NCBI GenBank assembly: GCA_958296125.1
Contig: OY282444.1
Coordinates: forward strand, 1,793,940 to 1,857,939
Origin: an uncultured Poribacteria bacterium
GTDB lineage: Bacteria > Poribacteria > WGA-4E > PCPOR2b
DNA length: 64,000 nucleotides
Reading direction: 5' to 3'
This document shows positions 25,347 through 53,026 of the stretch, in pieces. Position numbers and translations under genes: made by a program. The first letter of the stretch is position 1. The number at the start of each line of letters is the position of its first letter. The notes beneath the pieces were generated by a model. That model made no database searches. It was not told where the DNA came from and was given only the letters and a program-made list of their open reading frames with translations.

Positions 25347-25418
25347 ATGGATTTTTGTATATTTTTATCTTTTTTAGATTCGACAGAATTTAGCAGAATG
25401 GAGATGAACAAGAAATGA
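25347..25418 (+). CDS. 23-codon upstream ORF overlapping the sigma-factor start
   Basis: ATG 25347 stands 3 bases after AGGAGG (25338-25343) and opens [20 protein letters not shown] then NKK and TGA. The TGA (25416-25418) overlaps the sigma-factor ATG (25415-25417) as ATGA, a classic coupling arrangement. The peptide is Phe/Leu/Ser rich and AT-rich in codon use. It may be a leader that couples or attenuates sigma-factor translation. The spacing of only 3 bases to the AGGAGG is short, so the start is uncertain. Confidence 0.45.
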
Positions 25419-26812
25419 GTAAAGCACGTAAATTCACGCATAGTGGAACTGGCGATGAGCGAGCGAACGAGCTGGAATTTCACGACAACGATGAGCTCCT
25501 GTCAGCAGTGCCCACTGATGAAACGAATGCAGTTGATGAGGAAGAAAGTATCACGGAAGATACGACAGAAGATAGTTTGATTTCTTCCTTTCGACAACGC
25601 AGCGATGTTACCGATGGTACCCGAGATGAAGCTTTTTCTTATCTGCAAGAGATTGCTCGCACCCCCTTGCTTACGCCTGAAAAAGAGGTCGAACTGTTTC
25701 AACAGTTTGAAGTGGGAAAACAGGAGGTAACAAAGTTATTGGATCAGCTTCCACCTCGTATTTTAGAAGAAGTGCGTCCCAAAACCGGGCGGCGACGTGG
25801 TGCCAAACAGAAGGAAACGCAGGGCATTTGGTGGAGTCCAATGCACATCGCTACACTTTTGGAACAAATTCAAAAGGCAATCAAGACTTACCAAAAGCAC
25901 ATTGAGGCAGATGTTGCAACGACATTAAGCGATCAGGTTGAAGAGTGTGAACGCCTCGCAACCCTATGGATCGACTTAGGCGACGCTGTTCAAATTATTC
26001 AGGATGCGAAGTTGAAAATTGTTGAGGCCAACCTGCTGCTTGTTGCGAGTATTGCCAAACAGCATAATTTCAACAAATCATCACTTTCCTTCCTTGACCT
26101 CATGCAGGAGGGAAGTGTTGGCTTGATGAAGGCTGTGGAGAAATTCGATCTCACAAGAGGGTATCGCTTCAGCACCTATGCGACATGGTGGATCATGCAA
26201 GCGATCAAGCGTGCCTTGGATCAGCAGAGCCAGACAATTCGCATTCCCTGTTACGTTGGGGAAACCCGGAGATCTATCAAGCAGGCACAGAGCCGACTTG
26301 CTAGAGATCTCGAGTGTGAACCGGGCATCAAAGACATTGCCGAAGAGGTAGAGATGCCTGAAAGCCGTGTCGTCGAAATTCTCCAAAGCACGAAGGGTAC
26401 AATTTCGCTGGACTCGCCATTGAGCGAATCTTCACCTGATGCAACGATTTCTGACTTACTGGCTGATGACTCACAGGTGACCCCTGAGGAGGAATTGCTT
26501 TCTAACTCAGAAAGAGAGTCGCTTGAAGCGGTACTCGATACCTTAGCGGTTCGTGAAACACTTGTAATCAAGCTCCGCTACGGCTTGACCAATGACACGG
26601 AGCACACCCTTGCCCAGTTTGAACAGCTGCTTGGCATTAGCCGAGAACAGGTACGTCAAGAAGACGGCTTGACCGATGGCACGGAGCACACCCTTGCCCA
26701 GATTGGACGGCTGCTTGGCATTAGCCGAGAACGGGTACGTCAAATCGAAGATGAGGCACTCAGGAAGTTGCGCCATCATACGCGAGTGCAATACCTTCAA
26801 GAGCTTCTCTAA
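25415..26812 (+). CDS. Sigma-70 family RNA polymerase sigma factor with duplicated region 4.2
   Basis: A 465-residue sigma factor of the RpoD/group-2 class. After an acidic N-terminal ~70 residues come region 1.2 ([20 protein letters not shown]), region 2 ([20 protein letters not shown] then [19 protein letters not shown]), region 3, and region 4 (about 370-465). The helix-turn-helix of region 4.2 occurs twice in tandem: [20 protein letters not shown] and [20 protein letters not shown], each ending RE(Q/R)VRQ. It is a 28-residue in-frame duplication. Its ATG overlaps the stop of a 23-codon upstream ORF. Confidence 0.88.
26582..26749 (+). repeat. 84-bp tandem duplication inside the sigma-factor gene
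   Basis: Bases 26582-26665 and 26666-26749 align without gaps with 10 mismatches in 84, four of them in the last six bases. The period is 28 codons, so the frame is kept. Each unit encodes one helix-turn-helix. Confidence 0.9.
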
Positions 26813-37075: not shown

Positions 37076-40000
37076 TTACTTTAAGATCAGCATCTTGCGA
37101 GTAGCAGAGAAGTCACCGGCACTAAGGCTATAGAAGTAAATGCCACTGGCAACCTGTTCCCCGAATCGGTTTCTGCCATCCCAGTAGATAGCTTTGGCTC
37201 TCGACTCATAAACCGCTGCGGTTTGATGGCCGAGGTCAAGGATTCGCACCACTCGCCCGGTGGAATCGTAGAGGGTCAACGTAACATCGGCATCTTCTGC
37301 CAGACGATACGGAATCCACGTTTCAGGGTTGAACGGATTTGGATAGTTCCGAAGCAGTTCAGTCTCTGCCGGAATCTCATAAGCGATGAGATCTTCCATC
37401 TCAAGGATACCGCTTTTCACATCATCTACTGTAACGATATGACGCATCGGCTTGACCCCAATCAACGGATCTGGTGAATCAACGGAAATCTCAATGACAT
37501 CGCCAACTCGTGCGGCGTGAGCGTCATTGAGGTCAACAAAGGTCATATTGTATCCACCCCCGGGGCTGGAACGGACTGCTGCCGTTTCATCGGAGGTGAT
37601 CCGGCTGAGTGAAGTTTTTGTTGACAGGTTCTTCACCTTGACGCGGAATCCTTCCCTTGCGAGGCCGGTGCCTTCGTCAACAACAGCCCCGTGGACATCA
37701 AGGACCGGGGTTTGACTGTCAACCTTGTATCCAGCGAGCGCAATGGGTGCAGCCCCCGCCATCGTGTCGTTAGTCCACCCGTCCCCGGTGACCGTTGCAG
37801 AAGCATCAGCAGTCGCCGTTATGAGATATGCTGCGTCTCCCATGACGGGCCCGTCTCCGGGGTCCCCGGCTTGGCTGATGGCTTGGAAGTTGCCGTCGAT
37901 TGAAACAATGATGTTTGCGACACTCCCACCGAACAGCGTTATGAGGTCGCTGATATTGGTTACGCTTGCATCGTTGAGGGGCAGCCCGACGAGGTTCTGG
38001 CCCGCATTGAGGTTAATGGTGCCATCCTCCCACGCCTCACCGGTGAAGGTGACCGTTGTGTCGGCGGTCATCGAGAGGATGATACCCAGGTCGGCGGTAA
38101 TCGGCACGGCATCGCTGCGGCTATTCCACGAACTGCCATCATAGATGGTGGCGAGCGTGGCAGCATCGCCAAGCATCTCGCGGAGATCGCCCACAGTGTC
38201 GAGGCCTTCAACCTTGAGTGGCACGTGGAACAAGCTGACCCCTGCCGGTATCATCGAAGTGTATTCGAGGCTGTTTTGTAACATAACCATTGCAGAGGCC
38301 ATGCCACTATTGCCGGCAGCATCCATCGCTGTCACCGTGATGGTTTGCATACCGTTCATCGCTTCGTTATCTGCACTGATAGTCACTTCAGCACTGTAAA
38401 CATCCTCTGCCATAGTCAGTGCGACTGTCATTTGCGTTGAATCCAGCATTGAGACATCCGCCACAACCGAAGCAATCGCTCCGGCATCTGTAACGGTAGC
38501 CGTAATCATCACCATCTCCCCGTTTGAAACGGTATCAGGCGATGCGGTTACTGTTACCGCCGGTGCCATTGTGTCAACGGTCAACATCCCCGCAGACAAG
38601 CCCGAACCTGTTTCCGTGAGCGTAACCGTTACCTCATGGACTCCATCGTGTAGGTCCGCAACGGCTGTATAGGTGCCGGTATAGGTCCCTTCAGGCGACT
38701 CGGTCATTGCGGCTCCAGTCACAATCGAACCGATCGAAAAGGTTAGCATCTGACTTGCGGTGCCGGTGGCGTTGATCGTTACGATATCCCCCGTCTTCGC
38801 CATAGTTGTATCAATCGAAGCGGTTAGAAGGGTTATCATATCGGTCGTAACCGTCACTGCATGCGCTGCCGGTGTTAGGTTCGGCGCGCTCGCGGTGATC
38901 GTCGCTGCCCCAACGGTCGAATCCATGTAGTAGACCATCGCTGAAACATCACCGGTAGGAATAGTCACGGTGATGGCTTCGGTCCCTGCCGCCTCAGCGG
39001 TCTCAGCGAAGGTGCCGGCTGAAGTTGAGGTCAGGGTGACATCTACATCGGTCCCCATCGCGGTCTCATTGCCATCAGCATCTCGCAGCCCAACCGTGAT
39101 CGCCAGCGGCATTGCCCCGGCATCGGCAGAAACGGCACCGGCACTGCTCAACGAAAGCTGGCTCGGTGTGGAGTCTTGGACTCTAACCTGAACGTCGGCT
39201 ACAATCGGCTCGCCATCAAACAGAATCTTGAACGGCGTAACTTCACGATTCGCAGGCGCGTCGGCATTCTCATAGGTGAAGATAATCTCATCACCCGCTT
39301 CCACCTCAAGCCCCCCTAGTTTCACGCGGGCAACCATATCCCGGCCGACGGGGTCCAATTTTTCCACACTCACCGTCGTCGAGGCACCTTGGTGCCTGTG
39401 CACCACGGTGTAGGTCCCTTTGTCCTCCTCTGAAGCGGCAGCACTGTTGGGTGTTGTCCACGGAGCAGGAACTTGAACTCGGAACTCACGGGGCGCGTCA
39501 ATGATACCGACAGCGGTGTAGGTAAACGTAAGATCCACCCCCGTCGCACCTGCTTGGACAATCTTCGGTGTAACGGTCCCTGAACCGGAACCCGGTCTCG
39601 CTTCGCCGATATCAACGGTAAGCATTGTCGTCTCGCCGGAGACATTGACATACGAATCGGCTGCGTCACCGCCGTGAACTGCAACGGCAAATGCAACACC
39701 CGTCCCTGCGGCAGGCTGCACATCACCTGTGTAGACAAACGTCACGGTCCCGTTGGCACTCAGATTGACACCCTCAACGATGACCATTTGGCCATCAAAG
39801 GTGGGCGAAAATGCAGGTGTTACCGTTACCGTCTCCGCACTCGGCGCAGACCAGCCAGCGGGGATGGCCAATCGAACCTTGCCCCCAATCATTTGACCCG
39901 CCGCAGTGTAGGTGACGGTCAGCTCACGATCGGTATCCCCGGTATGGAGTGCCGCATCGCCATCGGTTACGGCAAGGACTGCTTTACCTTTCCCACTCGC

Positions 40001-43000
40001 TTGTGGATTGACCGTTATCGTCGGTTGCGTGCGTAGCGGTGCAAGGTTACCACCTTGATGTCCCCGAATCGCAACCCGAAACGCATCGGTGCCTGTTGTA
40101 GCGGAGGCTACCGCACGCCCGGTGCCGGTCGCACCATAGGTGATTTTGATAGTATTGGTTTTGTCAAGCGAAAAGATAGGCACGTTCACAGAGAACTTAT
40201 TATCGTCTGTGGCGGAGCCAAGCCCAACACCTTCCACTTCGGTATACCCCGGCTCGCCAACCTCTTCAACTTGGGGTTTACTCCAGCTCGATGGCACGGT
40301 AATTTTCAACTCCCCATCTTCAATGGTCTGGCTCGGGGTGTAGGTAAATACCAATTTCACATCGTCCGCAGCTGCACGAACCGTTGTCGTATCAACTGCC
40401 ACGGTTCCGGTGCCGTCCAATGCACTGGTTACTTTGATTTGTAGGACACCGGGCTTATCTTTATAAATCTTCCCCGTCTTGTCAGGGTTTCTTAGCTTCT
40501 CCCGGTCCTTGTGCTCCAAATCACTGGTAATGAGGGCGAAAACGCCGTCCCCACCCCCATCGGATTTAATCGTGAAGTCGGCGGTCCCAACAACGTCCTG
40601 AACCTCTGCACCGACATCGGCACCGGTCCCACCGCCATAGATAAATCGGAAACTTCCACCTTTGGCGAGCTTATCAATCGTTGCGATCACGAGGCTGTTG
40701 CCGATTTCCAATGAGGAGACCCCCGAACCGCGCGTCGTTATGTAATTCCGCTTTTGAGGGTCATTCTGCAGCGAACCCCAACCCGATGGAAGCTCGAGGC
40801 TTACCGCGCCCCCGTCCATCGTGCCTGCCGCTGTGAACGTCACCTCTAGTGCCCGATGACTACTGCCCGCCTCGATTGAGGCCGGTGATAGCACCGCAGT
40901 CCCCTTACCATCGCTGATATTGCCCAGCGTGACCGTAACCGTCCCGGCCGTCCGGGTGCTCGCACCTGAGGAGGTTCTAAATGTGCCGGTTACTTTGACA
41001 TCAGCGGCAACATGATGTAACACCGCTGCCTTGCCATCATCAGCCGTGCTACCATATCTAATCGTGACGAACTCACCGACATCCAGCTGCCCAACCGCAA
41101 CGGTGATCGTCCGACCGGAGACCGTGATCTCATCGTTCCCAACGCTCCCCGTGCCTCCGCTCTTTTTCGCTTGGCCATCGACTGCTATCCGGCCCGCCAC
41201 CCCTTTCGTCTTCGTCGGTGCACTGCCCAACGCGGACGGGATGGTCAACCGAACCAAGCCACCCCTTATCGGTGTCGATTCCGCTGTAAACTTGAAATCG
41301 ATGGTGGCATCACTGCCGGCATCGAACGTGCTGGGGCCATCGATTGCAAATGTTATCGCATCCCCCGATGTCTTTACAACGGAGAGGGTCGGTGCCTCAT
41401 TCACATCTGTGGTGGTCGGATCGTCCACAAGTTTCGCTGTCGAACCTCCAACCGTCACCGTCCAGGGATACTCGTTCGCTTCGGCTACGATGTTGACCCT
41501 GCGGATTCTCGCCGTTACCGTTTTCCCCTTCTTAACGGTGATACCTGTCCAAGTTATCGTCGTAGCAGTTACCCCTAAACTATCTGACTCCGAACCGGTG
41601 ACATACCCGTAGGCAGCAGAGTTGTCGTCCTGGAGCACCTGATCGGCATCGGGATCTATGACAATCCCGGTCGGAGTAATCACGATCGTTGTGTTGGTAA
41701 GATCGGTATACGCGGTATACGTTAGGGTGATATCGCGACGCTGCGAACCCGCCTCCACTGAAACCGGCGACAGATCCACCTTACCAGAACCGGCACTGTT
41801 AATTATCACCCCGCCCTCGATCACCGCTCCATCCGCCCCGGTTGGTTCTGTTGTGATGTGTACCACGAAAGCACTTCGATTAATATTATCAGGATCAGCA
41901 GAACGAGTAAAAGCATTATCGGGAATCGCGGTGTCGCGAGTATAGGAGACGATAACTTGCTGTCCTATATCTATCTTAGTCATGGGGATCGTTATGAAGT
42001 CCCCCTCATTACCGATGATGTTGATATTAGCCTCAGGGGTTACCGTAGGATCACCAATAGTTGCCCCGCCCCTTTGTCTCACATAAACTTGCTTTGACGA
42101 GGTATCACCAACATCCGCTTCTGCAATGCCATCGTCATCCGGTTGGAGAGTGTTCGGTATATATATTATTAGATCCCGACCATACATCGGCCCAGGGGCC
42201 GTAAAGGTAATGTCAAAGGAAATCTTTGCCTCGCCCGGGAAGACTCGCCCCGGTTTAATCACAACCTTTCTTTCGAGGGGGTCTCGATCGTTATCCTTAT
42301 CTCCTATGATATTGCCAACCCTGACTACTGGTAGAACCGATAACAGATTCAGAACACGGTCCCTGGGAGCCTCACTGCATTGGAATGGATAGCCAAAATA
42401 CATGACATCATCGGCAGTATTGGTGGTCCCCCGCTTGTCCGTGCTAGGCAGACTCCTAGGGATAGCGGCAGTCACATCACCCAATCGAATGATGAGGGCT
42501 TGATTAGGAATATCCCTCCCGGAACCCCAAGCTGAACCGAGGGTGACGGTTATCCGCTGGTCCGCTGTAAAGTCTACATTTGTCACGCTGTTATTATCTG
42601 CGAGGTTAGCACCTCTGGTGACAGTGCCATCTTCATCCGTTGCGTATATCACGGTCCCATTATCAGCCTTAACGGACAGGAACTTGTTAGAAACCTTCCA
42701 ACCCGGTGGTATCGCAATCCGAAACCGACCGCCAATTAGGTTTTCAGTCGTTGGCAGGTAGGTAAATTCCAGAACATTGCGAACACTGCCCGCAGCAAGA
42801 GGGGGAGGATCATTCATAAGCATCGCGGGGACCGTGACGGCCGAGGTGGCATCAGAGCGGTGCCCCCATTTTACCCCTACAGATCTTCCTGCTTCTGATT
42901 TGCTGATGTTTAAAGCATAGCTGCCCCCACTGGCCGGTCTCGGAGGCTCAAAGTCGCTCCCGTTTTTGACCTCGATAGTGAATGTATACCCAGTTGTCAC

Positions 43001-43954
43001 GCTAGGGGTAGGGACAACTGCCTTAAAGACTATGTAATAGCTACCAGCCGCCGCAGTTTGAGTGCTTTCCGCTTTGATCACACCATCCAAGGCTTGTGTT
43101 AGATCCGGAAGTGAAACATTTGCCCCTGTGATAGTCCCCCCCAGGGCAGTGTCATCCGGGGCCGCATTCGTAGTAAAGACATAGCCATTTATGCCCGTTA
43201 CAGTGCCATCCTCCGGATTCGGATCCACTATCTCGAACCCGTCTGGGACATCAACACTCAACCCATCATTGCTAGTAGTTCCAATCCATGCCATCTTAAC
43301 GGCTACCGTGTAAGTGCGACCGGCACCCCCCTCCACATCAGCCTTACTGGCGACCGAGGAGCCATCAGCTGAAAAAAAGTGGAACGATATCGATTGATCC
43401 GTCGGGGCGATGTTTAAAACATAGCTGCCCGCACTGGACGGGTTCGGAGCCCCAAAATTGCCGCCAGCACCGCCGCTTTTGACCGTGGAAGTGAATGTAT
43501 AACTAGTTGTCACGCTAGGGTCAGGGAAAACTGCCTTAAAGACTATGTAATAGCTACCAGACGCCGCAGTTTGAATATCGTCTATTGTGACCGTGCCATT
43601 CGAGGCTCGGGCTATACGTAGATGTCTACCATTTGCCGTTGGGAAAGTCCCCCCCAGGGCAGTGTCAGCCGGGGCCGACCGCGAAGTAAAGACATAGCCA
43701 TTTATTCCCGTTTCTGCTCCACTCCCATCCGGATCCACTATCGTGAACTCGTCTGGGACATCAACACGAAGCCCATCATTGTTAGTAGTTCCAGACCATA
43801 CCAGCTTAACGGCTACCGTGTAAGTGCGACCGGCACCACCCCCCTCCACATCAGTCTTAGTGAAGGCCGAGGAGCCATCCTCTGAAAAAAAGTGGAACGT
43901 TATCGTTTCAGTCGGCGCGGCCTCGTCAATGAACAAGCCCGCAACCAACATCAA
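37076..43954 (-). CDS. Giant modular surface protein A, out-of-frame start (phase OFF)
   Basis: A 2292-codon frame, minus strand. Two head repeats of about 160 residues start at about 18 and 190 (xITFHFF/ISFHFF...). The body (about 380-1590) is a row of Ig-like beta domains marked by EAGSxxRxxxVTFTAAG and (I/V)PSGWG-like motifs. Two more Ig-like units follow (about 1590-1890), then a VPLKVEGLDTVGDLREMLGD domain, and a C-terminal sorting-type domain (2199-2292) with NYPNPFNPETWIPY and ending SATRKMLILK. The ATG corresponding to gene B's start (44167-44169) is out of frame: the 16-unit repeat sends it to a TAA just after the array. TTG 43954 or ATG 43951 is only the first in-frame internal start and splits the signal peptide. 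With 14 or 17 units the gene would read MIE...signal peptide. Confidence 0.88.
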   Translation of the reverse strand: MMLVAGLFIDEAAPTETITFHFFSEDGSSAFTKTDVEGGGAGRTYTVAVKLVWSGTTNNDGLRVDVPDEFTIVDPDGSGAETGINGYVFTSRSAPADTALGGTFPTANGRHLRIARASNGTVTIDDIQTAASGSYYIVFKAVFPDPSVTTSYTFTSTVKSGGAGGNFGAPNPSSAGSYVLNIAPTDQSISFHFFSADGSSVASKADVEGGAGRTYTVAVKMAWIGTTSNDGLSVDVPDGFEIVDPNPEDGTVTGINGYVFTTNAAPDDTALGGTITGANVSLPDLTQALDGVIKAESTQTAAAGSYYIVFKAVVPTPSVTTGYTFTIEVKNGSDFEPPRPASGGSYALNISKSEAGRSVGVKWGHRSDATSAVTVPAMLMNDPPPLAAGSVRNVLEFTYLPTTENLIGGRFRIAIPPGWKVSNKFLSVKADNGTVIYATDEDGTVTRGANLADNNSVTNVDFTADQRITVTLGSAWGSGRDIPNQALIIRLGDVTAAIPRSLPSTDKRGTTNTADDVMYFGYPFQCSEAPRDRVLNLLSVLPVVRVGNIIGDKDNDRDPLERKVVIKPGRVFPGEAKISFDITFTAPGPMYGRDLIIYIPNTLQPDDDGIAEADVGDTSSKQVYVRQRGGATIGDPTVTPEANINIIGNEGDFITIPMTKIDIGQQVIVSYTRDTAIPDNAFTRSADPDNINRSAFVVHITTEPTGADGAVIEGGVIINSAGSGKVDLSPVSVEAGSQRRDITLTYTAYTDLTNTTIVITPTGIVIDPDADQVLQDDNSAAYGYVTGSESDSLGVTATTITWTGITVKKGKTVTARIRRVNIVAEANEYPWTVTVGGSTAKLVDDPTTTDVNEAPTLSVVKTSGDAITFAIDGPSTFDAGSDATIDFKFTAESTPIRGGLVRLTIPSALGSAPTKTKGVAGRIAVDGQAKKSGGTGSVGNDEITVSGRTITVAVGQLDVGEFVTIRYGSTADDGKAAVLHHVAADVKVTGTFRTSSGASTRTAGTVTVTLGNISDGKGTAVLSPASIEAGSSHRALEVTFTAAGTMDGGAVSLELPSGWGSLQNDPQKRNYITTRGSGVSSLEIGNSLVIATIDKLAKGGSFRFIYGGGTGADVGAEVQDVVGTADFTIKSDGGGDGVFALITSDLEHKDREKLRNPDKTGKIYKDKPGVLQIKVTSALDGTGTVAVDTTTVRAAADDVKLVFTYTPSQTIEDGELKITVPSSWSKPQVEEVGEPGYTEVEGVGLGSATDDNKFSVNVPIFSLDKTNTIKITYGATGTGRAVASATTGTDAFRVAIRGHQGGNLAPLRTQPTITVNPQASGKGKAVLAVTDGDAALHTGDTDRELTVTYTAAGQMIGGKVRLAIPAGWSAPSAETVTVTPAFSPTFDGQMVIVEGVNLSANGTVTFVYTGDVQPAAGTGVAFAVAVHGGDAADSYVNVSGETTMLTVDIGEARPGSGSGTVTPKIVQAGATGVDLTFTYTAVGIIDAPREFRVQVPAPWTTPNSAAASEEDKGTYTVVHRHQGASTTVSVEKLDPVGRDMVARVKLGGLEVEAGDEIIFTYENADAPANREVTPFKILFDGEPIVADVQVRVQDSTPSQLSLSSAGAVSADAGAMPLAITVGLRDADGNETAMGTDVDVTLTSTSAGTFAETAEAAGTEAITVTIPTGDVSAMVYYMDSTVGAATITASAPNLTPAAHAVTVTTDMITLLTASIDTTMAKTGDIVTINATGTASQMLTFSIGSIVTGAAMTESPEGTYTGTYTAVADLHDGVHEVTVTLTETGSGLSAGMLTVDTMAPAVTVTASPDTVSNGEMVMITATVTDAGAIASVVADVSMLDSTQMTVALTMAEDVYSAEVTISADNEAMNGMQTITVTAMDAAGNSGMASAMVMLQNSLEYTSMIPAGVSLFHVPLKVEGLDTVGDLREMLGDAATLATIYDGSSWNSRSDAVPITADLGIILSMTADTTVTFTGEAWEDGTINLNAGQNLVGLPLNDASVTNISDLITLFGGSVANIIVSIDGNFQAISQAGDPGDGPVMGDAAYLITATADASATVTGDGWTNDTMAGAAPIALAGYKVDSQTPVLDVHGAVVDEGTGLAREGFRVKVKNLSTKTSLSRITSDETAAVRSSPGGGYNMTFVDLNDAHAARVGDVIEISVDSPDPLIGVKPMRHIVTVDDVKSGILEMEDLIAYEIPAETELLRNYPNPFNPETWIPYRLAEDADVTLTLYDSTGRVVRILDLGHQTAAVYESRAKAIYWDGRNRFGEQVASGIYFYSLSAGDFSATRKMLILK

Positions 43955-44160
43955 ACTGATAACTAAAAATACGCCGCTTTTACGTTTTTGGATTAATGGG
44001 CTTTGAGTGGCTTTGAGTGGCTTTGAGTGGCTTTGAGTGGCTTTGAGTGGCTTTGAGTGGCTTTGAGTGGCTTTGAGTGGCTTTGAGTGGCTTTGAGTGG
44101 CTTTGAGTGGCTTTGAGTGGCTTTGAGTGGCTTTGAGTGGCTTTGAGTGGCTTTGAGTAG
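43955..44160 (-). other. Out-of-frame leader and signal-peptide start of surface protein A
   Basis: Bases 43955-44000 encode, in the frame of gene A, SPLIQKRKSGVFLVISL, which matches SPLTQQHKRCVFLVISL of gene B and continues into the signal peptide. The decamer array 44001-44160 lies upstream. In the frame of the ATG at 44169 the sequence reads KATQSHSKPL units and stops at TAA; a second frame opened by TTG 44165 stops at TAA 43980-43982. No start codon occurs in the required frame. Confidence 0.75.
44001..44160 (-). repeat. 10-bp tandem repeat, 16 units
   Basis: Fifteen perfect copies of CCACTCAAAG (minus strand) plus one degenerate copy (CTACTCAAAG) next to the start codon. 160 bases is 53 codons plus one base, which puts the ATG at 44169 out of frame with gene A. 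The unit is open in all three frames and encodes the same cyclic peptide, PLKATQSHSK, in each. Confidence 0.97.
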
Positions 44161-44311
44161 TTCAATCATCGTTCTCCTAAAATAAAAACCCTTTCGGGTA
44201 AAATGCTAGAATGGAGACAGGGGGGCACCTGCATAGAACGGTCAACTGACCAAAGTCAATCCCATACAGGTAGTTCCCACAACTTGCCCTGTCAAAACTA
44301 AGAAACAATTA
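44161..44311 (-). promoter_or_regulatory. Duplicated upstream region of surface protein A
   Basis: These 151 bases match 51177-51327 with only two mismatches. On the minus strand they hold TTGACA with a weak -10, an alternative TTGACT-18-TATGCA pair, a perfect GGTCAACTGACC-type palindrome, a small ACCC-GAAA-GGGT hairpin followed by a T-rich run, and AGGAG before ATG. It begins only 7 bases after the stop of gene B. Confidence 0.55.
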
Positions 44312-44318
44312 GCTGATG

Positions 44319-47300
44319 TTACTTTAGAATCAGCATCTTACGGGTGGCAGAGAAGTCACCGGCACTAAGGCTGTAGAAGTAAATGCCACTAGCAACCTGT
44401 TCCCCGAATCGGTTTCTGCCATCCCAGTAGATAGCTTTGGCTCTCGACTCATAAACCGCTGCGGTTTGATGGCCGAGATCAAGGGTTCTCACCACCCGCC
44501 CGGTAGAATCGTAGAGGGTCAACGTAACATCGGCATCTTCTGCCAGACGATACGGAATCCACGTTTCTGGGTTGAACGGATTTGGATAGTTCCGAAGCAG
44601 CTCGGTCTCTGCCGGAATCTCATAAGCGATGAGGTCTTCTATCTCAAGGATACTGCTTTTCACATCATCTACTGTAACGATGTGGCGCATCGGCTTAACC
44701 CCAATCAACGGATCTGGTGAATCAACGGAAATCTCAATGACATCGCCGACCCGTGCGGCATGAGCGTCATTAAGGTCAACAAAGGTCATATTGTATCCGA
44801 TCGCTGCCGTTTCATCGGAGGTGATCCGACTGAGTGAAGATTTTGTTGATAGGTTCTTCACCTTGACGCGGAAGCCTTCCCTTGCGAGTCCAGTGACTTC
44901 GTCAACAACAGCCCCGCGGACATCAAGGACCGGGGTTTGACCGTCAACCTTGTATCCAGCGAGCGCAATAGGTGCAGCCCCCGCCATCGTGTTGTTAGTC
45001 CACCCGTCCCCGGTGAGCGTTGCAGAAGCATCAGCAGTTGCCGTTATGAGATATGCTGCGTCCCCCATGACAGGCCCGTCTCCGGGATCCCCGGCTTGGC
45101 TGATGGCTTGGAAGTTACCGTCGGTTGAAACAATGATGTTTGCGACACTCCCATCAAACAGCGTTATGATGTCGCTGATATTGGTCACGCTCGCATCGTT
45201 GAGAGGCAGCCCGACAAGGTTCTGTCCCGCTTGGAGATTGATGGTGCCATCGTCCCACGCATCGCCGGTGAAGGTGACCGTTGTGTCAGCGGTCATCGAA
45301 AGGACAATCCCCAGGTCAGCGGTTATCGGCACGTCCCCGCTGCGACTATTCCACGAATTGCCATCATAGATGGTGGCGAGCGTGGCAGCATCGCCAAGCA
45401 TCTCGCGGAGATCGCCCACGGTGTCGAGGCCTTCGACTTTAAGTGGCACGTGGAACAAGCTAACCCCTGCCGGTATCATCGAAGTATATTCGAGACTATT
45501 TTGTAACATAACCGTTGCAGAGGCCATGCCACTATTACCGGCGGCATCCATCGCTGTCACCGTGATGGTTTGCATACCGTTCATCGCTTCGTTATCTGCA
45601 CTGATGGTTACTTCAGCACTGTAAGCACCATCTGAAGCGTCATCTGCCATGGTCAGTGCGACCGTCGTTTGCGTTGAATCCAGCATTGAGACATCCGCCA
45701 TCACCGAAGCAATCGCTCCAGCATCTGTAACCGTAGCCGTGATCGTCACCATCTCCTCGTTTGCAACGGCGTCAGGAGATGCGGCAACCGTTACCGCCGG
45801 TGCCATCGTGTCAACGGTCAACATCCCCGCAGACAGGCTCGAACCTGTTTCCGTAAGCGTAACCGTGACCTCATGGATTCCATCGTGTAGGTCCGCAACG
45901 GCTGTATAGCTGCCGGTATAGGTCCCTTCAGGTGACTCGGTCATTGATGCCCCAGTCACAATCGAACCGATCGAGAAGGTTAGCATCTGATTCGCGGTGC
46001 CGGTGGCGGTGACCGTTACAGTGTCCCCCACCTTCGCCATCGTTGTATCAATCGAAGCGGTTAGAAGGGTTATCATATCGCTCGTGACCGTCACCTCATG
46101 CGTTGCCGGTGTCAGGTTCGGCGCGGTCGCGGTGACCGTCGCTGCCCCAACCGTCGAATCATGGTAGTAAACCATCGCTGCAACATCACCTGTGGGGATA
46201 GTCACAGTAATGGCTTCGGTCCCCGTCGCCTCAGCGGTCTCAGAGAAAATGCCGGCTGAGCTTGAGGTGAGGGTAACATCTACATCGGTCCCCATCGCGG
46301 TCTCATTGCCATTAGCATCTTGCAGCCCAACCGTGATCGCCAGTGGCATCGCCCCGGCATCAGCGGAAACGGCACCGGCACTGCTCAGCGAAAGCTGGCT
46401 CGGTGTGGAGTCTTGGACTCTAACCTGAACGTCGGATGCAACCAGCTTGCCATCAAACAGGATCTTGAACGGCGTAACTTCACGATTCGCAGGCGCGTCG
46501 GCATTCTCGTAGGTGAAAATAATTTTATCACCTGCTTCTACCTCAAGCCCACCCAACTTCACGCGGGCAACCATATCCCGGCCGACAGGGTCCAATTTTT
46601 CCACACTCACCGTCGTCGCGGCACCCCTGTGCCTGTGCACCACGGTGTAGGTTCCCTTGTCCTCCTCTGAAGTGGCAGCATTGTTGGGTGCCGTCCACGG
46701 CGCAGGAACTTGAACTCGGAACTCACGGGGCGCGTCAATGATGCCGACAGCGGTGTAGGTAAACGTCAGGTCCACCCCCGTCGCACCCGCTTGGACAATC
46801 CGCGGTGTAACGGTCCCTGAACCGGAGCCCGGTCTCGCCTCTGCAACATCAACGGTGAGCATTGTCGCGTCGCCTGAGACATCAGCATACGAATCGGCTG
46901 CGTCACCACCGTGAACCGCAACGGCAAAGGTAACACCCGTCCCCGCAGTCGGCTGCACATCACCGGTGTAGACAAACGTCACGGTCCCGTTGGCACTCAA
47001 ATTCACACCCTCAACGATGATCATTTGACCGTCAAAGGTGGACGAAAACGCAGGTGTTACCGTCACCGTCTCCGCACTCGGCGCAGACCAACCAGCGGGG
47101 ATGGTCAACCGAACCTTGCCCCCAATCATTTGACCCGCCGCAGTGTAGGTGACGGTCAACTCGCGGTCAGTATCCCCGGTATGGAGCGCCGCATCGCCAT
47201 CGGTCACGGCAAGGACTGCTTTACCTTTCCCACTCGCCTGTGGGTTGACCGTTATCGTCGGTTGCGTGCGGATCGGTGCAAAGTTGCCACCTTCATGCCC

Positions 47301-50300
47301 CTGAATCGCAATCCGAAACGCATCGGTGCCCGTCGTAGCAGAGGCTACCGCACGCCCGGTGCCGGCAGCACCGTAGGTGATCCTAATACTATTGGTTTTG
47401 TCAAGCGAAAAGATAGGCACCGTCACCGAGAACTTATCATCGTCCGCGGCGGAACCCAACCCAACGCCTTCCACTTCGGTATACCCCGGCTCACCCACCT
47501 CTTCAACTTGGGGTTTACTCCAGCTCGATGGCACGGTAATTTTCAACGCCCCATCTTCAATGGTCTGGCTCGGGGTGTAGGTAAATACCAATATCACATC
47601 GTCCGCAGCCGCACGCACCGTTTCCGTATCAACCGTCGCCGTTCCGGTGCCGTCCAATGCACCGGTCACTTTGATTTGTAAGATACCGGGCCTATCTTTA
47701 TAAATCTTCCCCGTCTTGTCAGGGTTTCTTATCTTCTCCCGGTCCTTGTGCTCCAATTCACTAGTAATGAGGGCGAAAACACCGTCCCCATCCCCATCAG
47801 ATTTAATCGTGAAGTCGGCGGTCCCAACAACGTCCTGAACCTCCGCACCGACATCGGCACCGGTTCCACCGCCGTAGATAAATCGGAAACTCCCACCTTT
47901 GGCGAGCTTATCGATTGTCGCGATCACGAGGTTGCTACCGATTTCCAATGAGGAGACCCCCGAACCGCGCGTCGTTATGTAATTCCGCTTTTGAGGGTCA
48001 TTCTGCATCGAACCCCAACCCGATGGAAGCTCGAGACTTACCGCGCCCCCGTCCATCGTGCCTGCCGCTGTGAACGTCACCTCTAACGCCCGATTACTAC
48101 TGCCCGCCTCTATTGAGGCCGGCGATAGCACCGCAGCAGCCTTACCGTCGACGATATTGCCCAGCGTAACCGTGACCGTCCCGGCCGTCCGGGTGCTCCC
48201 ACCCGAGGCGGTTCTAAAACTACCGGTCACTTCGACATCAGCAGCGACATGATGTAACACCGCCGCCTTCCCGTCGTCATCCGTCCGACCATACCTAATC
48301 GTGACGGAATCACCGACATTTAGCTGCCCAATCGCAACGCTAACCGTCCGACCGGAGACCGTGATCTCATCGTTACCAATAGCCGTTTTCCCACCGCTTG
48401 TTTTAGCATTGCCAAGGACTTGCACCCGGCCCGCCACCCCTTTCGTCTTCGTCGGCGCACTGCCCAACGCGGACGGGATGGTCAACCGAACCAAGCCACC
48501 CCGTATCGGGGTCGACTCCGCTGTAAACTTGAAATTGATGGTCGCCTCACTGCCGGCGGAGAACGTGTCGGCCCCATCGATTGCAAATGTTATCGCATCC
48601 GCTGAGGTCTTCACAACCGAGAGGATCGGGATCTCATTCACACCTGTGGTGGTCGGATCGTCCACAAGGGACGCAGCTCCAACCTCCACATCCCAGGCAT
48701 ACTCAGCCGCATCGGCTATGATGTTGACCCTGCGGATTCTCGCCGTTACCGTTTTCCCTTTCTTAACGCTAATACTTGTCCAAGTCAGCTTATCCGCAGC
48801 TACCGTTAAACTATCAGACTCCGAACCGGTGACATACCCGTAGGCAGCAGAGTTATCATCCTGGAGTATCTGATCGGCACTGGCATCTATGACAAGCCCC
48901 TTCGGCTCTATCTCTATCGTTGTGTTGCTAAGATCGGTATACGCGGTATACGTCACGGTGATATCGCGACGCTGCGAACCCGCCTCCACTGAAACCGGCG
49001 ACAGATCCACCTTACCAGAACCGCCGACAGCAATCCACCGACCACCACTCACCTTCGCATCGGCGGTCTCAGATTTGATAAGCGTCGGCTCAACATCAGC
49101 GGCGACACCGCGCTTGACAATGGTCTCCGCGGTGATACCCGCATCAGTGCTACTCCCAATCGCAGCATCGCGAGTATAGGAAACGATAATTTGCTGACCC
49201 GTATCAAGCGTGGTAATCGGGATCGTTAGCTTCGTAGGATTGGTGGCATCACCCGCCGTAACCATCTCGGCACCAATGGCTCCCCCGCCCCGTGTCCACA
49301 CCTTGAAATCACCAGCCACAGGGGTGTCCTTTGGCCCTAAATGGGCCATTCCGACTCCTGCGGGTAGAAAGGATAACGCTAGCTCACTGTTGTGCATCGG
49401 CCCAGGGGCTGTAAAGGTGAGTGTGAATCGGGTCTTTTCCTCGCCCGGGAATACCCGACCCGGTGTGATTTTAAGCTCTCTTGTGAGGGGGTCACGGGTA
49501 TTAGCATTAGAGGTGTCAGCAACCGGCGGACCATCTCCTATGATATTGCCAACCCTAACTACCGGTGAAACCAGTAACAGACGCAGAACATTGTCCCTGG
49601 TGCTGGCACTGCATCGGAATTCATAGCCAGCATACCTGATATCATCGGCCGCATCGGTGTTACCCCGAGTGTCCATGCCAAGCAGACTCCTAGGGATAGG
49701 GGCAGTCACATCACCAAATCGGATGATAAGGGCTTTCTCAACACTCCTCTGGGCATTCCAACTCGAACCGAGGGTGACGGTTATCCGCTTGTCCGCTTCA
49801 AATTCTACATTTGTCACGCTGTTATTATCTGCGAGGTTAGCACCGGTGACGACATTGCCATCTTTATCCGTTTCGTATATCGGCGTTGCACCATCCTTGA
49901 TTGATAGGAACTTGTTAGAAACCTTCCAACCCGGTGGTATCGCAATCCGAAACCGACCGCCAACCATGTTTTCAGTCGTTGGCCTGGGCCTGTAGGTAAA
50001 CTCCAGAACATTGCGAACACTGCCCGCAGCAAGAGGGGGAAGCGGGGTCTTAGGATCCGCCTTGACAATCACCGAGGGCATCGGGTCGGGCAAGTTGGCG
50101 TTAGCACGGTGAGCCCAGCCTATGTTTACTTGGCCCGCGTTGACGAATAAATGCCAGTTTTCGTTGTCACCTACGTCTTGCCTTCTTCTTGTAATACTTT
50201 GATCAGCACTTTCCTCATCTCCTGTCCGCTCTGCAAGCGGAACGAATACAAAATCACCTCGAATTTCCTCTCCTTGAAGGTTTCCATATACAGGTGCCTG

Positions 50301-51185
50301 GTTCATCGGGTCAAATACGGTTAGCCAGAGCGTTCTGTAGTTCGATTCCGTTATTATCGGAGGCGCGACCTGGACGACGGTCGGGGTAGAGACGATGGTC
50401 GTATCGGCCGCGAGCGTCGATACGTCTATGTGCGACGTGTCCAGCTCCCTCCAAGTGCCCCCTGCGTTGACCTGATACCTGAATACAAAGGTCGTGTCCT
50501 TGACAAGGGGACGGATATGTATCAAACAGCTCACTAAGTAGTGAGCTCTCACTACAGCTACGTTATCGGTAGTATCTGGATCCATAGCGGAAATTTGTTG
50601 TTTGATTCTTACCAACTTCTCTCCCTCGTCCACGAATATACCCGTGGAATCGTCCACATCGGGGTCATCGTAAAGCGCGTGACCGGGGAGTGTAGTGTAG
50701 AGACCGGGAGAGAATTCAGTATTAACCATAGATATGCTTCCTGAGTAGAAAGCACGCACCCGAGTCCCCACCAGGGCCTTCCCTTCGGAATTCCGAAGGA
50801 ACTCGACACCGTCTGGGAGCCAAAACTGAAACCCCCGCTTATCGTCGTTATTGTGCGTTGTATACGCAATGGTCAACAGGTAATCACGGCCGCCCCGAAT
50901 ATCCCCCTCGGGAATAATCCATCGATTGGTTGGATCACTAAGGGCGAAACCTATTAGGTCAGAGAATATCCTGCCTTGCGGCGCGGCCTCGTCAATGAAC
51001 AAGCCCGCAACCAACATCAAACTGATAACCAAAAATACGCATCTTTTATGTTGTTGGGTTAATGGGCTTTGAGTGGCTTTGAGTGGCTTTGAGTGGCTTT
51101 GAGTGGCTTTGAGTGGCTTTGAGTGGCTTTGAGTGGCTTTGAGTGGCTTTGAGTGGCTTTGAGTGGCTTTGAGTAGTTCAATCAT
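44319..51185 (-). CDS. Giant modular surface protein B, in frame (phase ON)
   Basis: A 2288-residue secreted protein. Residues 1-50 are MIEL plus repeated LKATQSHSKP decapeptides encoded by the 11-unit array; 51-78 complete a signal peptide (QQHKRCVFLVISLMLVAGLF). The head (about 80-375) is unlike gene A. From PLAAGSVRNVLEFTY (about 382) to the end the two proteins are nearly collinear and highly similar: Ig-like beta domains, then VPLKVEGLDTVGDLREMLGD, then the C-terminal sorting-type domain with NYPNPFNPETWIPY, YWDGRNRFGEQVASGIYFY and RKMLILK. It is probably displayed on the cell surface or released by a type-IX-like or porin-type pathway; none is visible here. ATG 51185 has AGGAG 4 bases upstream. 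Confidence 0.92.
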   Translation of the reverse strand: MIELLKATQSHSKPLKATQSHSKPLKATQSHSKPLKATQSPLTQQHKRCVFLVISLMLVAGLFIDEAAPQGRIFSDLIGFALSDPTNRWIIPEGDIRGGRDYLLTIAYTTHNNDDKRGFQFWLPDGVEFLRNSEGKALVGTRVRAFYSGSISMVNTEFSPGLYTTLPGHALYDDPDVDDSTGIFVDEGEKLVRIKQQISAMDPDTTDNVAVVRAHYLVSCLIHIRPLVKDTTFVFRYQVNAGGTWRELDTSHIDVSTLAADTTIVSTPTVVQVAPPIITESNYRTLWLTVFDPMNQAPVYGNLQGEEIRGDFVFVPLAERTGDEESADQSITRRRQDVGDNENWHLFVNAGQVNIGWAHRANANLPDPMPSVIVKADPKTPLPPLAAGSVRNVLEFTYRPRPTTENMVGGRFRIAIPPGWKVSNKFLSIKDGATPIYETDKDGNVVTGANLADNNSVTNVEFEADKRITVTLGSSWNAQRSVEKALIIRFGDVTAPIPRSLLGMDTRGNTDAADDIRYAGYEFRCSASTRDNVLRLLLVSPVVRVGNIIGDGPPVADTSNANTRDPLTRELKITPGRVFPGEEKTRFTLTFTAPGPMHNSELALSFLPAGVGMAHLGPKDTPVAGDFKVWTRGGGAIGAEMVTAGDATNPTKLTIPITTLDTGQQIIVSYTRDAAIGSSTDAGITAETIVKRGVAADVEPTLIKSETADAKVSGGRWIAVGGSGKVDLSPVSVEAGSQRRDITVTYTAYTDLSNTTIEIEPKGLVIDASADQILQDDNSAAYGYVTGSESDSLTVAADKLTWTSISVKKGKTVTARIRRVNIIADAAEYAWDVEVGAASLVDDPTTTGVNEIPILSVVKTSADAITFAIDGADTFSAGSEATINFKFTAESTPIRGGLVRLTIPSALGSAPTKTKGVAGRVQVLGNAKTSGGKTAIGNDEITVSGRTVSVAIGQLNVGDSVTIRYGRTDDDGKAAVLHHVAADVEVTGSFRTASGGSTRTAGTVTVTLGNIVDGKAAAVLSPASIEAGSSNRALEVTFTAAGTMDGGAVSLELPSGWGSMQNDPQKRNYITTRGSGVSSLEIGSNLVIATIDKLAKGGSFRFIYGGGTGADVGAEVQDVVGTADFTIKSDGDGDGVFALITSELEHKDREKIRNPDKTGKIYKDRPGILQIKVTGALDGTGTATVDTETVRAAADDVILVFTYTPSQTIEDGALKITVPSSWSKPQVEEVGEPGYTEVEGVGLGSAADDDKFSVTVPIFSLDKTNSIRITYGAAGTGRAVASATTGTDAFRIAIQGHEGGNFAPIRTQPTITVNPQASGKGKAVLAVTDGDAALHTGDTDRELTVTYTAAGQMIGGKVRLTIPAGWSAPSAETVTVTPAFSSTFDGQMIIVEGVNLSANGTVTFVYTGDVQPTAGTGVTFAVAVHGGDAADSYADVSGDATMLTVDVAEARPGSGSGTVTPRIVQAGATGVDLTFTYTAVGIIDAPREFRVQVPAPWTAPNNAATSEEDKGTYTVVHRHRGAATTVSVEKLDPVGRDMVARVKLGGLEVEAGDKIIFTYENADAPANREVTPFKILFDGKLVASDVQVRVQDSTPSQLSLSSAGAVSADAGAMPLAITVGLQDANGNETAMGTDVDVTLTSSSAGIFSETAEATGTEAITVTIPTGDVAAMVYYHDSTVGAATVTATAPNLTPATHEVTVTSDMITLLTASIDTTMAKVGDTVTVTATGTANQMLTFSIGSIVTGASMTESPEGTYTGSYTAVADLHDGIHEVTVTLTETGSSLSAGMLTVDTMAPAVTVAASPDAVANEEMVTITATVTDAGAIASVMADVSMLDSTQTTVALTMADDASDGAYSAEVTISADNEAMNGMQTITVTAMDAAGNSGMASATVMLQNSLEYTSMIPAGVSLFHVPLKVEGLDTVGDLREMLGDAATLATIYDGNSWNSRSGDVPITADLGIVLSMTADTTVTFTGDAWDDGTINLQAGQNLVGLPLNDASVTNISDIITLFDGSVANIIVSTDGNFQAISQAGDPGDGPVMGDAAYLITATADASATLTGDGWTNNTMAGAAPIALAGYKVDGQTPVLDVRGAVVDEVTGLAREGFRVKVKNLSTKSSLSRITSDETAAIGYNMTFVDLNDAHAARVGDVIEISVDSPDPLIGVKPMRHIVTVDDVKSSILEIEDLIAYEIPAETELLRNYPNPFNPETWIPYRLAEDADVTLTLYDSTGRVVRTLDLGHQTAAVYESRAKAIYWDGRNRFGEQVASGIYFYSLSAGDFSATRKMLILK
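51067..51176 (-). repeat. 10-bp tandem repeat, 11 units
   Basis: Ten perfect CCACTCAAAG copies plus one CTACTCAAAG copy at the start-codon end. 110 bases is 36 codons plus two bases, which keeps ATG 51185 in frame with the signal peptide and gene B. It differs from the sister array by five units. Confidence 0.97.
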
Positions 51186-51327
51186 CGTTCTCCTAAAATA
51201 AAAACCCTTTCGGGTAAAATGCTAGAATGGAGACAGGGGGGCACCTGCATAGAACGGCCAACTGACCAAAGTCAACCCCATACAGGTAGTTCCCACAACT
51301 TGCCCTGTCAAAACTAAGAAACAATTA
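51177..51327 (-). promoter_or_regulatory. Duplicated upstream region of surface protein B
   Basis: It is the sister of 44161-44311. One of its two differences changes GGTCAACTGACC to GGCCAACTGACC, breaking the symmetry of the possible operator. The duplicated identity ends at position 51327, directly before a run of alternating TA. Confidence 0.55.
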
Positions 51328-51340
51328 TATATATAATACA

Positions 51341-51358
51341 ACAGATCGAAAGATCTGT
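51341..51358 (-). terminator. Hairpin with T-rich tail after the LamG gene
   Basis: ACAGATC and GATCTGT pair over 7 bp around a 4-base loop; on the minus strand TTGTATTATATATATAATT follows. It lies 207 bases after the LamG gene stop and just upstream of the promoter region of gene B, which suits a terminator that insulates the giant gene. Confidence 0.45.
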
Positions 51359-51365
51359 CAAGTGT

Positions 51366-51565: not shown

Positions 51566-53026
51566 TTACAGGTCCTCGTCTTCATCATCTTCATCATCGT
51601 CCCGAATCCGCGTTGGTTCTTCGCCGGGTGCTGGTATTTCTGGGGTCGGATGCGGCTTTAACTCAAAATCGAAACCGGTCCTCATTTCTCCCATCTTTAC
51701 ATGCGTCCGGGTCACTATGTTAGAGTAGGCCCTGTCTCTTACCACTTTCACCTTGACTTCCCCAACGGGAACCCCATTGAGGGTATACCTCCCCTCCCGA
51801 TTGGAAAAGATATACCGCAGTTGACACCATCTATTTGACACCTGTATCCGCGCTCCTGAGATTGGTGTCTTGTCATCAGCGTCAATGATGGTCCCGGAAA
51901 GTCCCCCGTGCGGGAAGATGTCTACGGTGCCAGCTGGCGTGTGCGCTGTTATCAGCGCATTTTCAGCTCCCACAAGGCGAAGGTTTTCCAGATAGATTTT
52001 GCTGCTGCCTACCTGTTTCGCCTCAAAAGTTACAATCGCTAGAATTCCCTTCTTACTTTTAACAGCGGTATTTGTGGTTCGATAAGATCGAATGTCCGCA
52101 ATAACACCTTTTTTATTATCCACACGCGGTTTTTCCCACACCGTGGTGTCAATGCCCTTTCGGCTTAAAAAATCTCCTTCTTTAATATCGACCACCTTTA
52201 GGATGGCAGGGTCAAATTTCAGGTCGAAGGTAAAGCGATAGAGCGGGGCAGTAAGACCAACAGAAATATTCGTGGTAAATGTCTCGCTTGGATTGATAAC
52301 CGTGCTCTCAACATCAATTGCATTGGCGGGTGTAAAGCTATTCGGCAAGGTTGCTGCTATAATCTGGGTAGATCCTTCGAGAACACCGTGATTCCCGTTT
52401 GGGGACAGATCCGCTGCGGTGCCGTCGTCGAAGTTCCAGTAACCCGCCAAGCCCGGTTCATCCCCTGTGAGGGGCGCATTCATTGTTGACAGGATTTCTT
52501 CGTGGGTGCGGGCGACGTTCCAGATGCGGACCTCATCGACCATACCCGGCCAATACTGGTTACCGTGCGTTCCGATTTGAACCGGCGAGCTGCTTGAAGG
52601 AATGGAGCCAGGCCAATCTCTCTCTGCTGCGAGACCCCCGTTGATGTAGACCCCCTGTTTTTGGCCATCGTAGACACAAGCGATGTGAAACCATTCATCC
52701 TTTGGCGCGCCAAAGCGGAGCATATCGTCTTCCCGCCCCTCTCGAAAGATGAAGAACCCATCGCTGTGAATATCCCAGGACATCGGATCGGCTAAATATT
52801 TGGATAGCCAGGCCTGTGCCCATTCGTTTACGGTCTCTGCATCCTTATGAAACACCCATCCTTCAAGGGTGATGGCCTCCGTAATATCAAGACTGTCCGA
52901 GTGGGCAATTTCGACATAATCTCCACCGCCATCCAGACTCAACACCCGATTAACGGCCCAAGTGTCGTGCATTATGGCGATAAAGGTTAGGGTGAAAACG
53001 CTCGATACTGTCAATGCAAACTTCAT
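51566..53026 (-). CDS. Secreted LamG/cohesin-like/carboxypeptidase-regulatory-like protein
   Basis: A 486-residue secreted protein. The signal peptide is about 1-24 (ending DTWAV). A LamG domain follows (about 27-215: LDGGGDYVEIAHSDSLDI, ITLEGWVFHK, MVDEVRIWNVARTHEEIL). Then a cohesin-like beta domain (about 235-370: FTFDLKFDPAILKVVDIKEG). Then a carboxypeptidase-regulatory-like beta domain (about 375-455: GLSGTIIDADDKTPISGARI). The C-terminus is a run of Asp/Glu. The composition suggests glycan binding and display. It ends the probable operon starting at the sulfatase-like gene. Confidence 0.83.
   Translation of the reverse strand: MKFALTVSSVFTLTFIAIMHDTWAVNRVLSLDGGGDYVEIAHSDSLDITEAITLEGWVFHKDAETVNEWAQAWLSKYLADPMSWDIHSDGFFIFREGREDDMLRFGAPKDEWFHIACVYDGQKQGVYINGGLAAERDWPGSIPSSSSPVQIGTHGNQYWPGMVDEVRIWNVARTHEEILSTMNAPLTGDEPGLAGYWNFDDGTAADLSPNGNHGVLEGSTQIIAATLPNSFTPANAIDVESTVINPSETFTTNISVGLTAPLYRFTFDLKFDPAILKVVDIKEGDFLSRKGIDTTVWEKPRVDNKKGVIADIRSYRTTNTAVKSKKGILAIVTFEAKQVGSSKIYLENLRLVGAENALITAHTPAGTVDIFPHGGLSGTIIDADDKTPISGARIQVSNRWCQLRYIFSNREGRYTLNGVPVGEVKVKVVRDRAYSNIVTRTHVKMGEMRTGFDFELKPHPTPEIPAPGEEPTRIRDDDEDDEDEDL

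Follow-up and report, generated by a model that had tools for sequence, protein, structure and literature searches.

Decamer arrays between start codon and signal peptide as a likely translational switch in a dispersed family of giant surface proteins of a Poribacteria genome

Two tandem genes of an uncultured Poribacteria bacterium, here called A and B, carry runs of a 10-bp repeat inside their reading frames, which raises the question of whether the number of units decides if each protein is made. The window, that is, the whole stretch of 64,000 nucleotides that was analyzed, corresponds to positions 1,793,940-1,857,939 of a one-contig 5.16-Mb genome, and coordinates below refer to it unless another locus is named. 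A first-pass annotation had located the arrays at 44001-44160 (A) and 51067-51176 (B), between start codon and signal peptide, and our sequence check placed both there, each behind a start codon that is preceded by a good ribosome-binding site. The 16 and 11 units counted earlier in A and B are 15+1 and 10+1, as the first unit of each array is CTACTCAAAG, while every other unit is perfect. Read along the minus strand, the start of gene B is AGGAG-AACG-ATG-ATTGAA-CTACTCAAAG-(CCACTCAAAG)10-C-signal peptide; gene A is built alike with 15 pure units. Runs of 10-19 perfect decamers, set against zero occurrences of a reversed-pattern control in the genome, exclude chance. The pair comprises the following features:

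51190-51194, minus strand: Shine-Dalgarno sequence (AGGAG) of gene B, 4 nt upstream of the ATG (sequence and leader alignment)
44319-51185, minus strand: gene B, 2,288 codons, ON, with ATG 51185 in frame with signal peptide and body
51179-51181, minus strand: TTG just 3' of the B start codon, in the body frame only if the number of pure units is 2 mod 3, which is not the case at present
51067-51176, minus strand: array B, 10 pure CCACTCAAAG (51067-51166) with one CTACTCAAAG before them (51167-51176)
50046-50975, minus strand: hypervariable region near the N terminus of B, roughly residues 31-340 downstream of the array
44174-44178, minus strand: Shine-Dalgarno AGGAG of gene A (sequence and leader alignment)
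44001-44160, minus strand: array A, 15 pure CCACTCAAAG (44001-44150) with one CTACTCAAAG before them (44151-44160)
43993-44169, minus strand: out-of-frame 58-codon peptide from the A ATG (OFF state), with CAT TAA directly after the array
37076-44000, minus strand: gene A body, intact over all 2,307 codons between array and stop and under purifying selection; it comprises a signal peptide, an N-terminal part that is variable and a C-terminal one that is conserved

As 10 bp is 1 mod 3, the reading frame depends on the number of units, and a frame table yields three states for the number n of pure units. At n = 1 mod 3, the ATG is in frame with the body; at n = 2 mod 3, the body is served by a TTG within ATGATTGAAC that follows the ATG by 4 nt and is probably a weak start at translation; at n = 0 mod 3, no in-frame ATG, GTG or TTG occurs upstream of the body. 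Gene B had been called ON and gene A OFF, and we obtained the same states: ATG 51185 opens 2,288 codons ending at 44319, whereas ATG 44169 reads MIELLKATQ...LKAH-stop, 58 codons. The 14 or 17 units that were predicted to restore A correspond in the frame table to 13 or 16 pure units. The accompanying claim that no alternative start exists in the needed frame is correct for the present count of A, where an in-frame ATG, GTG or TTG is absent upstream of the body and the first in-frame starts (TTG 43954 and the adjacent ATG) fall within the core of the signal peptide and lack a Shine-Dalgarno sequence. It does not extend to the third frame, which the TTG 4 nt after the ATG serves, and that phase is not simply OFF.

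While the two genes had been described as a linked pair, a decamer scan of the genome revealed seven arrays, part of a ten-member family. We found at least seven loci with leader and array, with 3, 10, 14, 15, 15, 15 and 19 pure units, counts that come from one assembly and, as assembled counts, can err by a unit. Besides A and B, these are:

269 kb: array locus, 19 pure units, changed start ATGATTAAATGA
385 kb: array locus, 14 pure units
2.308 Mb: array locus, 15 pure units
2.539 Mb: array locus, 15 pure units
4.159 Mb: array locus, 3 pure units

An intact body of 2,248-2,324 codons follows the array at all seven loci. By frame, one copy is ON (B), one is in the TTG phase (385 kb, n = 14) and five are OFF, namely A and the copies at 2.308 Mb and 2.539 Mb (15 units each), 4.159 Mb (3 units) and 269 kb (19 units). 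In the 269-kb copy, the first ATG of ATGATTAAATGA runs into a TGA and the second ATG needs n = 0 mod 3, leaving it OFF at 19 units; this copy with its mutated start may be decaying. The opposite phases of A and B, which the first-pass annotation had singled out, carry no special meaning, as one or none of seven copies in the ATG frame has p ~0.26; an exclusive control that keeps a single copy on was rejected likewise, one in seven being within chance. Three close paralogs, 90-93% identical in the conserved part, carry an ordinary short leader (e.g., MMIRQEGLNLQKLSVF) without an array and are presumably always readable, and an eleventh, more distant family member lies at 2.444-2.450 Mb.

4291147-4297707: array-free paralog L060, short leader MM(I/F)...NLQKLS
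3520835-3527563: array-free paralog L061, short leader MM(I/F)...NLQKLS
4463000-4470034: array-free paralog L110, short leader MM(I/F)...NLQKLS

Upon scanning 968 kb of the genome (800 kb of spread-out samples in addition to the window and the family loci) for perfect tandem arrays of at least 30 bp and at least three copies, we obtained, other than the decamers, only 12-bp and 15-bp units, both of which preserve the frame. Elsewhere in the window, an 84-bp unit is repeated twice, in frame, at 26580-26743 inside an ORF at 25415-26812. Directly upstream of gene B, window 51566-53026 (minus strand) encodes laminin-G-like, cohesin and carboxypeptidase-regulatory-like domains, and a BsuBI/PstI-type restriction endonuclease gene lies just upstream of the 19-unit copy (L009, 12235-13188, minus strand). 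Two similar small secreted-protein ORFs stand in tandem upstream of the 2.539-Mb copy (L012, 13717-14666, minus strand) and a similar-looking one upstream of the 2.308-Mb copy (L011, 2204-2749), a likeness hinting that a larger block was duplicated.

The OFF copies bear the marks of genes in use. Over the last 1,400 codons, dN/dS lies within 0.13-0.22 for each pair of copies, even between two OFF copies. A stop codon results from about 2.6% of single substitutions, and at 0.10 neutral substitutions per site ~18 stops would be expected per copy; none was seen. Intact bodies and purifying selection together indicate, at the level of sequence, that the OFF copies are expressed at times, often enough for selection to act, and on the same two observations a family of pseudogenes was rejected. 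The N-terminal region (alignment columns 30-450) has a dN/dS of ~0.7-1.3 where measurable, and the first ~300-400 residues are hypervariable across copies, with an identity of 35-50% in the hypervariable region versus mostly >90% in the C-terminal part.

Unit numbers appear to change quickly. All pure units are identical, yet the dS of the copies' C-terminal parts is 0.08-0.27, and gene B and its nearest sibling, at 4.159 Mb, encode proteins that are 97% identical and have 10 versus 3 units. Identical units beside diverged copies, and such different counts in close siblings, imply that the arrays turn over fast. The bodies, in turn, share long identical tracts: the 269-kb and 385-kb copies have one of 300 bp in common, and A shares one of 202 bp with the 2.31-Mb copy, the latter within a 99% stretch that adjoins an 85% stretch. 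These tracts, along with nearest neighbors that shift along the bodies, indicate gene conversion as the probable process.

We then asked where the array came from. An uncultivated symbiont or marine lineage had been guessed from the window, and this was borne out at the phylum level: a contig search with the C-terminal part of B returned four Candidatus Poribacteria MAGs, and one with the whole B protein found no relative. The 84 other genomes of the phylum that we scanned, including five from this genus, all lacked the decamer, as did viral contigs, and the start regions of the genus homologs held no arrays. A phage origin was rejected, as no PHROG match was obtained. A promoter of the form TTGACAGAT-N6-ATCTGT-NG-TATTAT precedes the homologs of three congeneric species (G002, G003 and G004) and one fragmentary copy (G005). 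The G002-G005 homologs have no array; they start with an extension at the N terminus, M(I/F)....DAS..., and carry an internal ATG preceded by a purine-rich sequence for ribosome binding. The relatives' homologs are also without the ~300-residue variable region after the signal peptide. As relatives share the promoter and have a homolog without the array, the array would sit in a pre-existing leader; the internal start seems to be missing in the present species, which would make expression frame-dependent. The array-free homologs of sister species thereby show how a switch can arise within an existing leader.

Transcription of the pair involves the following two features:

51333-51361, minus strand: family promoter of gene B, TTGACA-N17-TATTAT (11/12 matches in the scan)
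44170-44318, minus strand: B-A intergenic region, leader conserved, family promoter absent

With 0-2 mismatches, the 29-mer promoter also occurs at five other array loci, two array-free paralogs and five relatives, and a reversed-pattern control gave 0. The promoter spacer of B contains an inverted repeat, ACAGATC-TTTC-GATCTGT (51339-51360), and repeats of the type ACAGATC-N4-GATCTGT lie between -35 and -10 at other family promoters and are kept in relatives with a changed loop, which makes them a possible operator for a shared regulator. A hairpin in the leader that resembles a terminator (ACCC-GAAA-GGGT) was considered and rejected, as it is not kept in two copies. In the leader alignment, the homology of A starts just downstream of the position of the family promoter, and neither a promoter-like nor a terminator-like site was found at the B-A junction within 43900-44700. 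Gene A is thus probably transcribed from the promoter of B, in which case its output may depend on both arrays.

The proteins themselves are recognizable at their C termini:

44328-44588, minus strand: T9SS type A sorting domain/FlgD Ig-like C terminus of B (TIGR04183, 28.8 bits, cut-off 23; PF13860, 33.1, cut-off 27)
37085-37345, minus strand: T9SS type A sorting domain of A (TIGR04183, 35.7 bits, cut-off 23)

Pfam and NCBIfam yielded FlgD_ig and T9SS sorting domains only, both C-terminal and above cut-offs. The T9SS-type tail has 32 matches in the genome at E ≤0.001, and an SprA-like protein of 2,170 aa (L108, 2392-8904, plus strand; genome ~1477891-1484403) contains SprA_N above the Pfam cut-off, its divergence being reflected in a TIGR04189 score of 143 bits, below the NCBIfam cut-off of 200. 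Export of the family by a T9SS is therefore likely on sequence grounds, and the proteins would lie at the surface. AlphaFold2 predicts an all-beta structure for residues 1-610 of mature B; the model has a mean pLDDT of 61, and its confidence is low in the variable part. In the PDB, Foldseek matched this model to the Ig-type adhesins PrgB, antigen I/II, SdrG and Cnm and to integrins, with E down to 1e-9 and TM-scores mostly <0.35. Judged by the model, an Ig-like, adhesin-type surface protein is likely.

Overall, we consider translational phase variation by strand slippage, acting on a dispersed family of surface proteins, to be the best explanation, with a probability of roughly 0.85. The frame-switching mechanism proposed in the first-pass annotation gains strong support from the anatomy of the loci, the seven arrays in varied phases, the selection on OFF copies and the array-free homologs. 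Like a contingency locus, each gene has a tandem array near its 5' end, within the reading frame, with a unit that is not a multiple of 3; the unit number decides whether start and body match in frame; and the out-of-frame copies keep an intact, selected coding sequence. According to this mechanism, T9SS-sorted Ig-like proteins with a hypervariable tip would be controlled at translation by the in-gene array. Transcription would begin at the shared promoter, and ribosomes would bind AGGAG-AACG-ATG and read through n CCACTCAAAG units. At n = 1 mod 3, they would enter the signal peptide and make the ~2,300-residue protein (ON); at n = 2 mod 3, only the TTG 4 nt on would be in frame, probably with weak output; and at n = 0 mod 3, they would have no in-frame start (OFF). 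The gain or loss of one unit, presumably by slippage in living cells, would move a copy to another state. With seven such switches and gene conversion between the bodies, a population could hold many surface combinations, and the benefit may lie in host or phage recognition.

Other readings of the same anatomy fare less well. The mosaic relations and the long identical tracts between copies (300 bp and 202 bp) would also be expected if only B and the array-free copies were expressed, with the OFF loci feeding gene conversion as silent donors and the arrays arising as a by-product. We regard this as unlikely, because ribosome-binding site, start, signal peptide and stop are retained in the OFF copies, as is the family promoter in all except A, features that a donor does not need, while purifying selection is strong over 1,400 codons even in OFF-OFF pairs. 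Alternatively, the assembled unit numbers could be wrong or the arrays stable, so that the ON/OFF calls would be meaningless and all copies normally translated. Assemblies can indeed misjudge repeat runs, and we had a single genome; however, the units are perfect, partial units are absent and all three residue classes occur over the seven loci, a 10-bp unit is presumably unlike the typical homopolymer error, and perfect unit identity next to diverged flanks points to rapid turnover rather than stability, all of which makes this reading quite improbable. Least credible of all, with hardly any weight in our assessment, is that the array acts as a length-variable pre-signal peptide, a regulator-binding or spacing element, or a programmed frameshifting site with no ON/OFF meaning. 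The array of B is indeed translated, as a Lys/Ser/Gln-rich n-region, but the unit length is not divisible by 3, promoter and start both lie upstream of the array, and the protein is encoded without an array in relatives and in three paralogs.

To our knowledge, multi-gene switches of this kind are known almost only from pathogens, whereas members of Candidatus Poribacteria are mostly sponge symbionts. A literature search found no paper linking Poribacteria or sponge symbionts with phase variation as its subject. The seven-locus system in Candidatus Poribacteria is hence a candidate counter-example to a pathogen-centred picture: if phase variation holds, even a symbiont that has no vertebrate immune system to escape would gamble on surface diversity, for which sponge recognition or phage attack are possible causes.

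The closest parallel is the Opa family of Neisseria, in which dispersed paralogs each carry a CTCTT array between the ATG and the mature protein and switch independently at translation, and in which hypervariable exposed regions contrast with a conserved remainder and copies recombine with each other. The Poribacteria family shares the dispersed copies, the frame-breaking in-gene array before the mature protein, the hypervariable tips and the recombination between copies. Opa, however, is a small outer-membrane beta-barrel without homology to the ~2,300-residue, Ig-like, T9SS-tailed proteins described here, which use a decamer unit, occur in another phylum and have array-free siblings. The sequence comparison thus presents the family as organised like Opa and unrelated to it. 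Whether it amounts to an independently evolved, combinatorial Opa-like system in a mostly sponge-associated phylum, in which seven decamer-switched giant proteins with three expression levels per locus, alongside always-on siblings, let a presumably non-pathogenic partner vary its host (or phage) recognition, and in which the output of A also depends on transcription through B, is in our estimate an even bet.

We know of no decamer-array switching among the T9SS type A cargo of Bacteroidota. The present proteins resemble that cargo (TIGR04183, PF18962) in their C-terminal sorting domain above the NCBIfam cut-off and differ in the host phylum, here Poribacteria. With lic2A and the tetranucleotide loci of Haemophilus influenzae, they share a repeat near the 5' end of the gene (PMC2651432) and, going by a title cited in PMC6479036, alternative start codons with a potential for graded expression at lic2A, whereas those loci encode LPS enzymes and have mostly 4-bp units, repeat units >7 bp being rare in H. 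influenzae (PMC2651432). With hmw1A and hmw2A of the same species, the family shares large surface adhesin paralogs that carry arrays, of 7-9 bp units in hmw; the hmw arrays, however, lie mostly upstream, in or near the promoter and not in the reading frame (PMC2651432), unlike the Poribacteria arrays, which sit between start codon and signal peptide.
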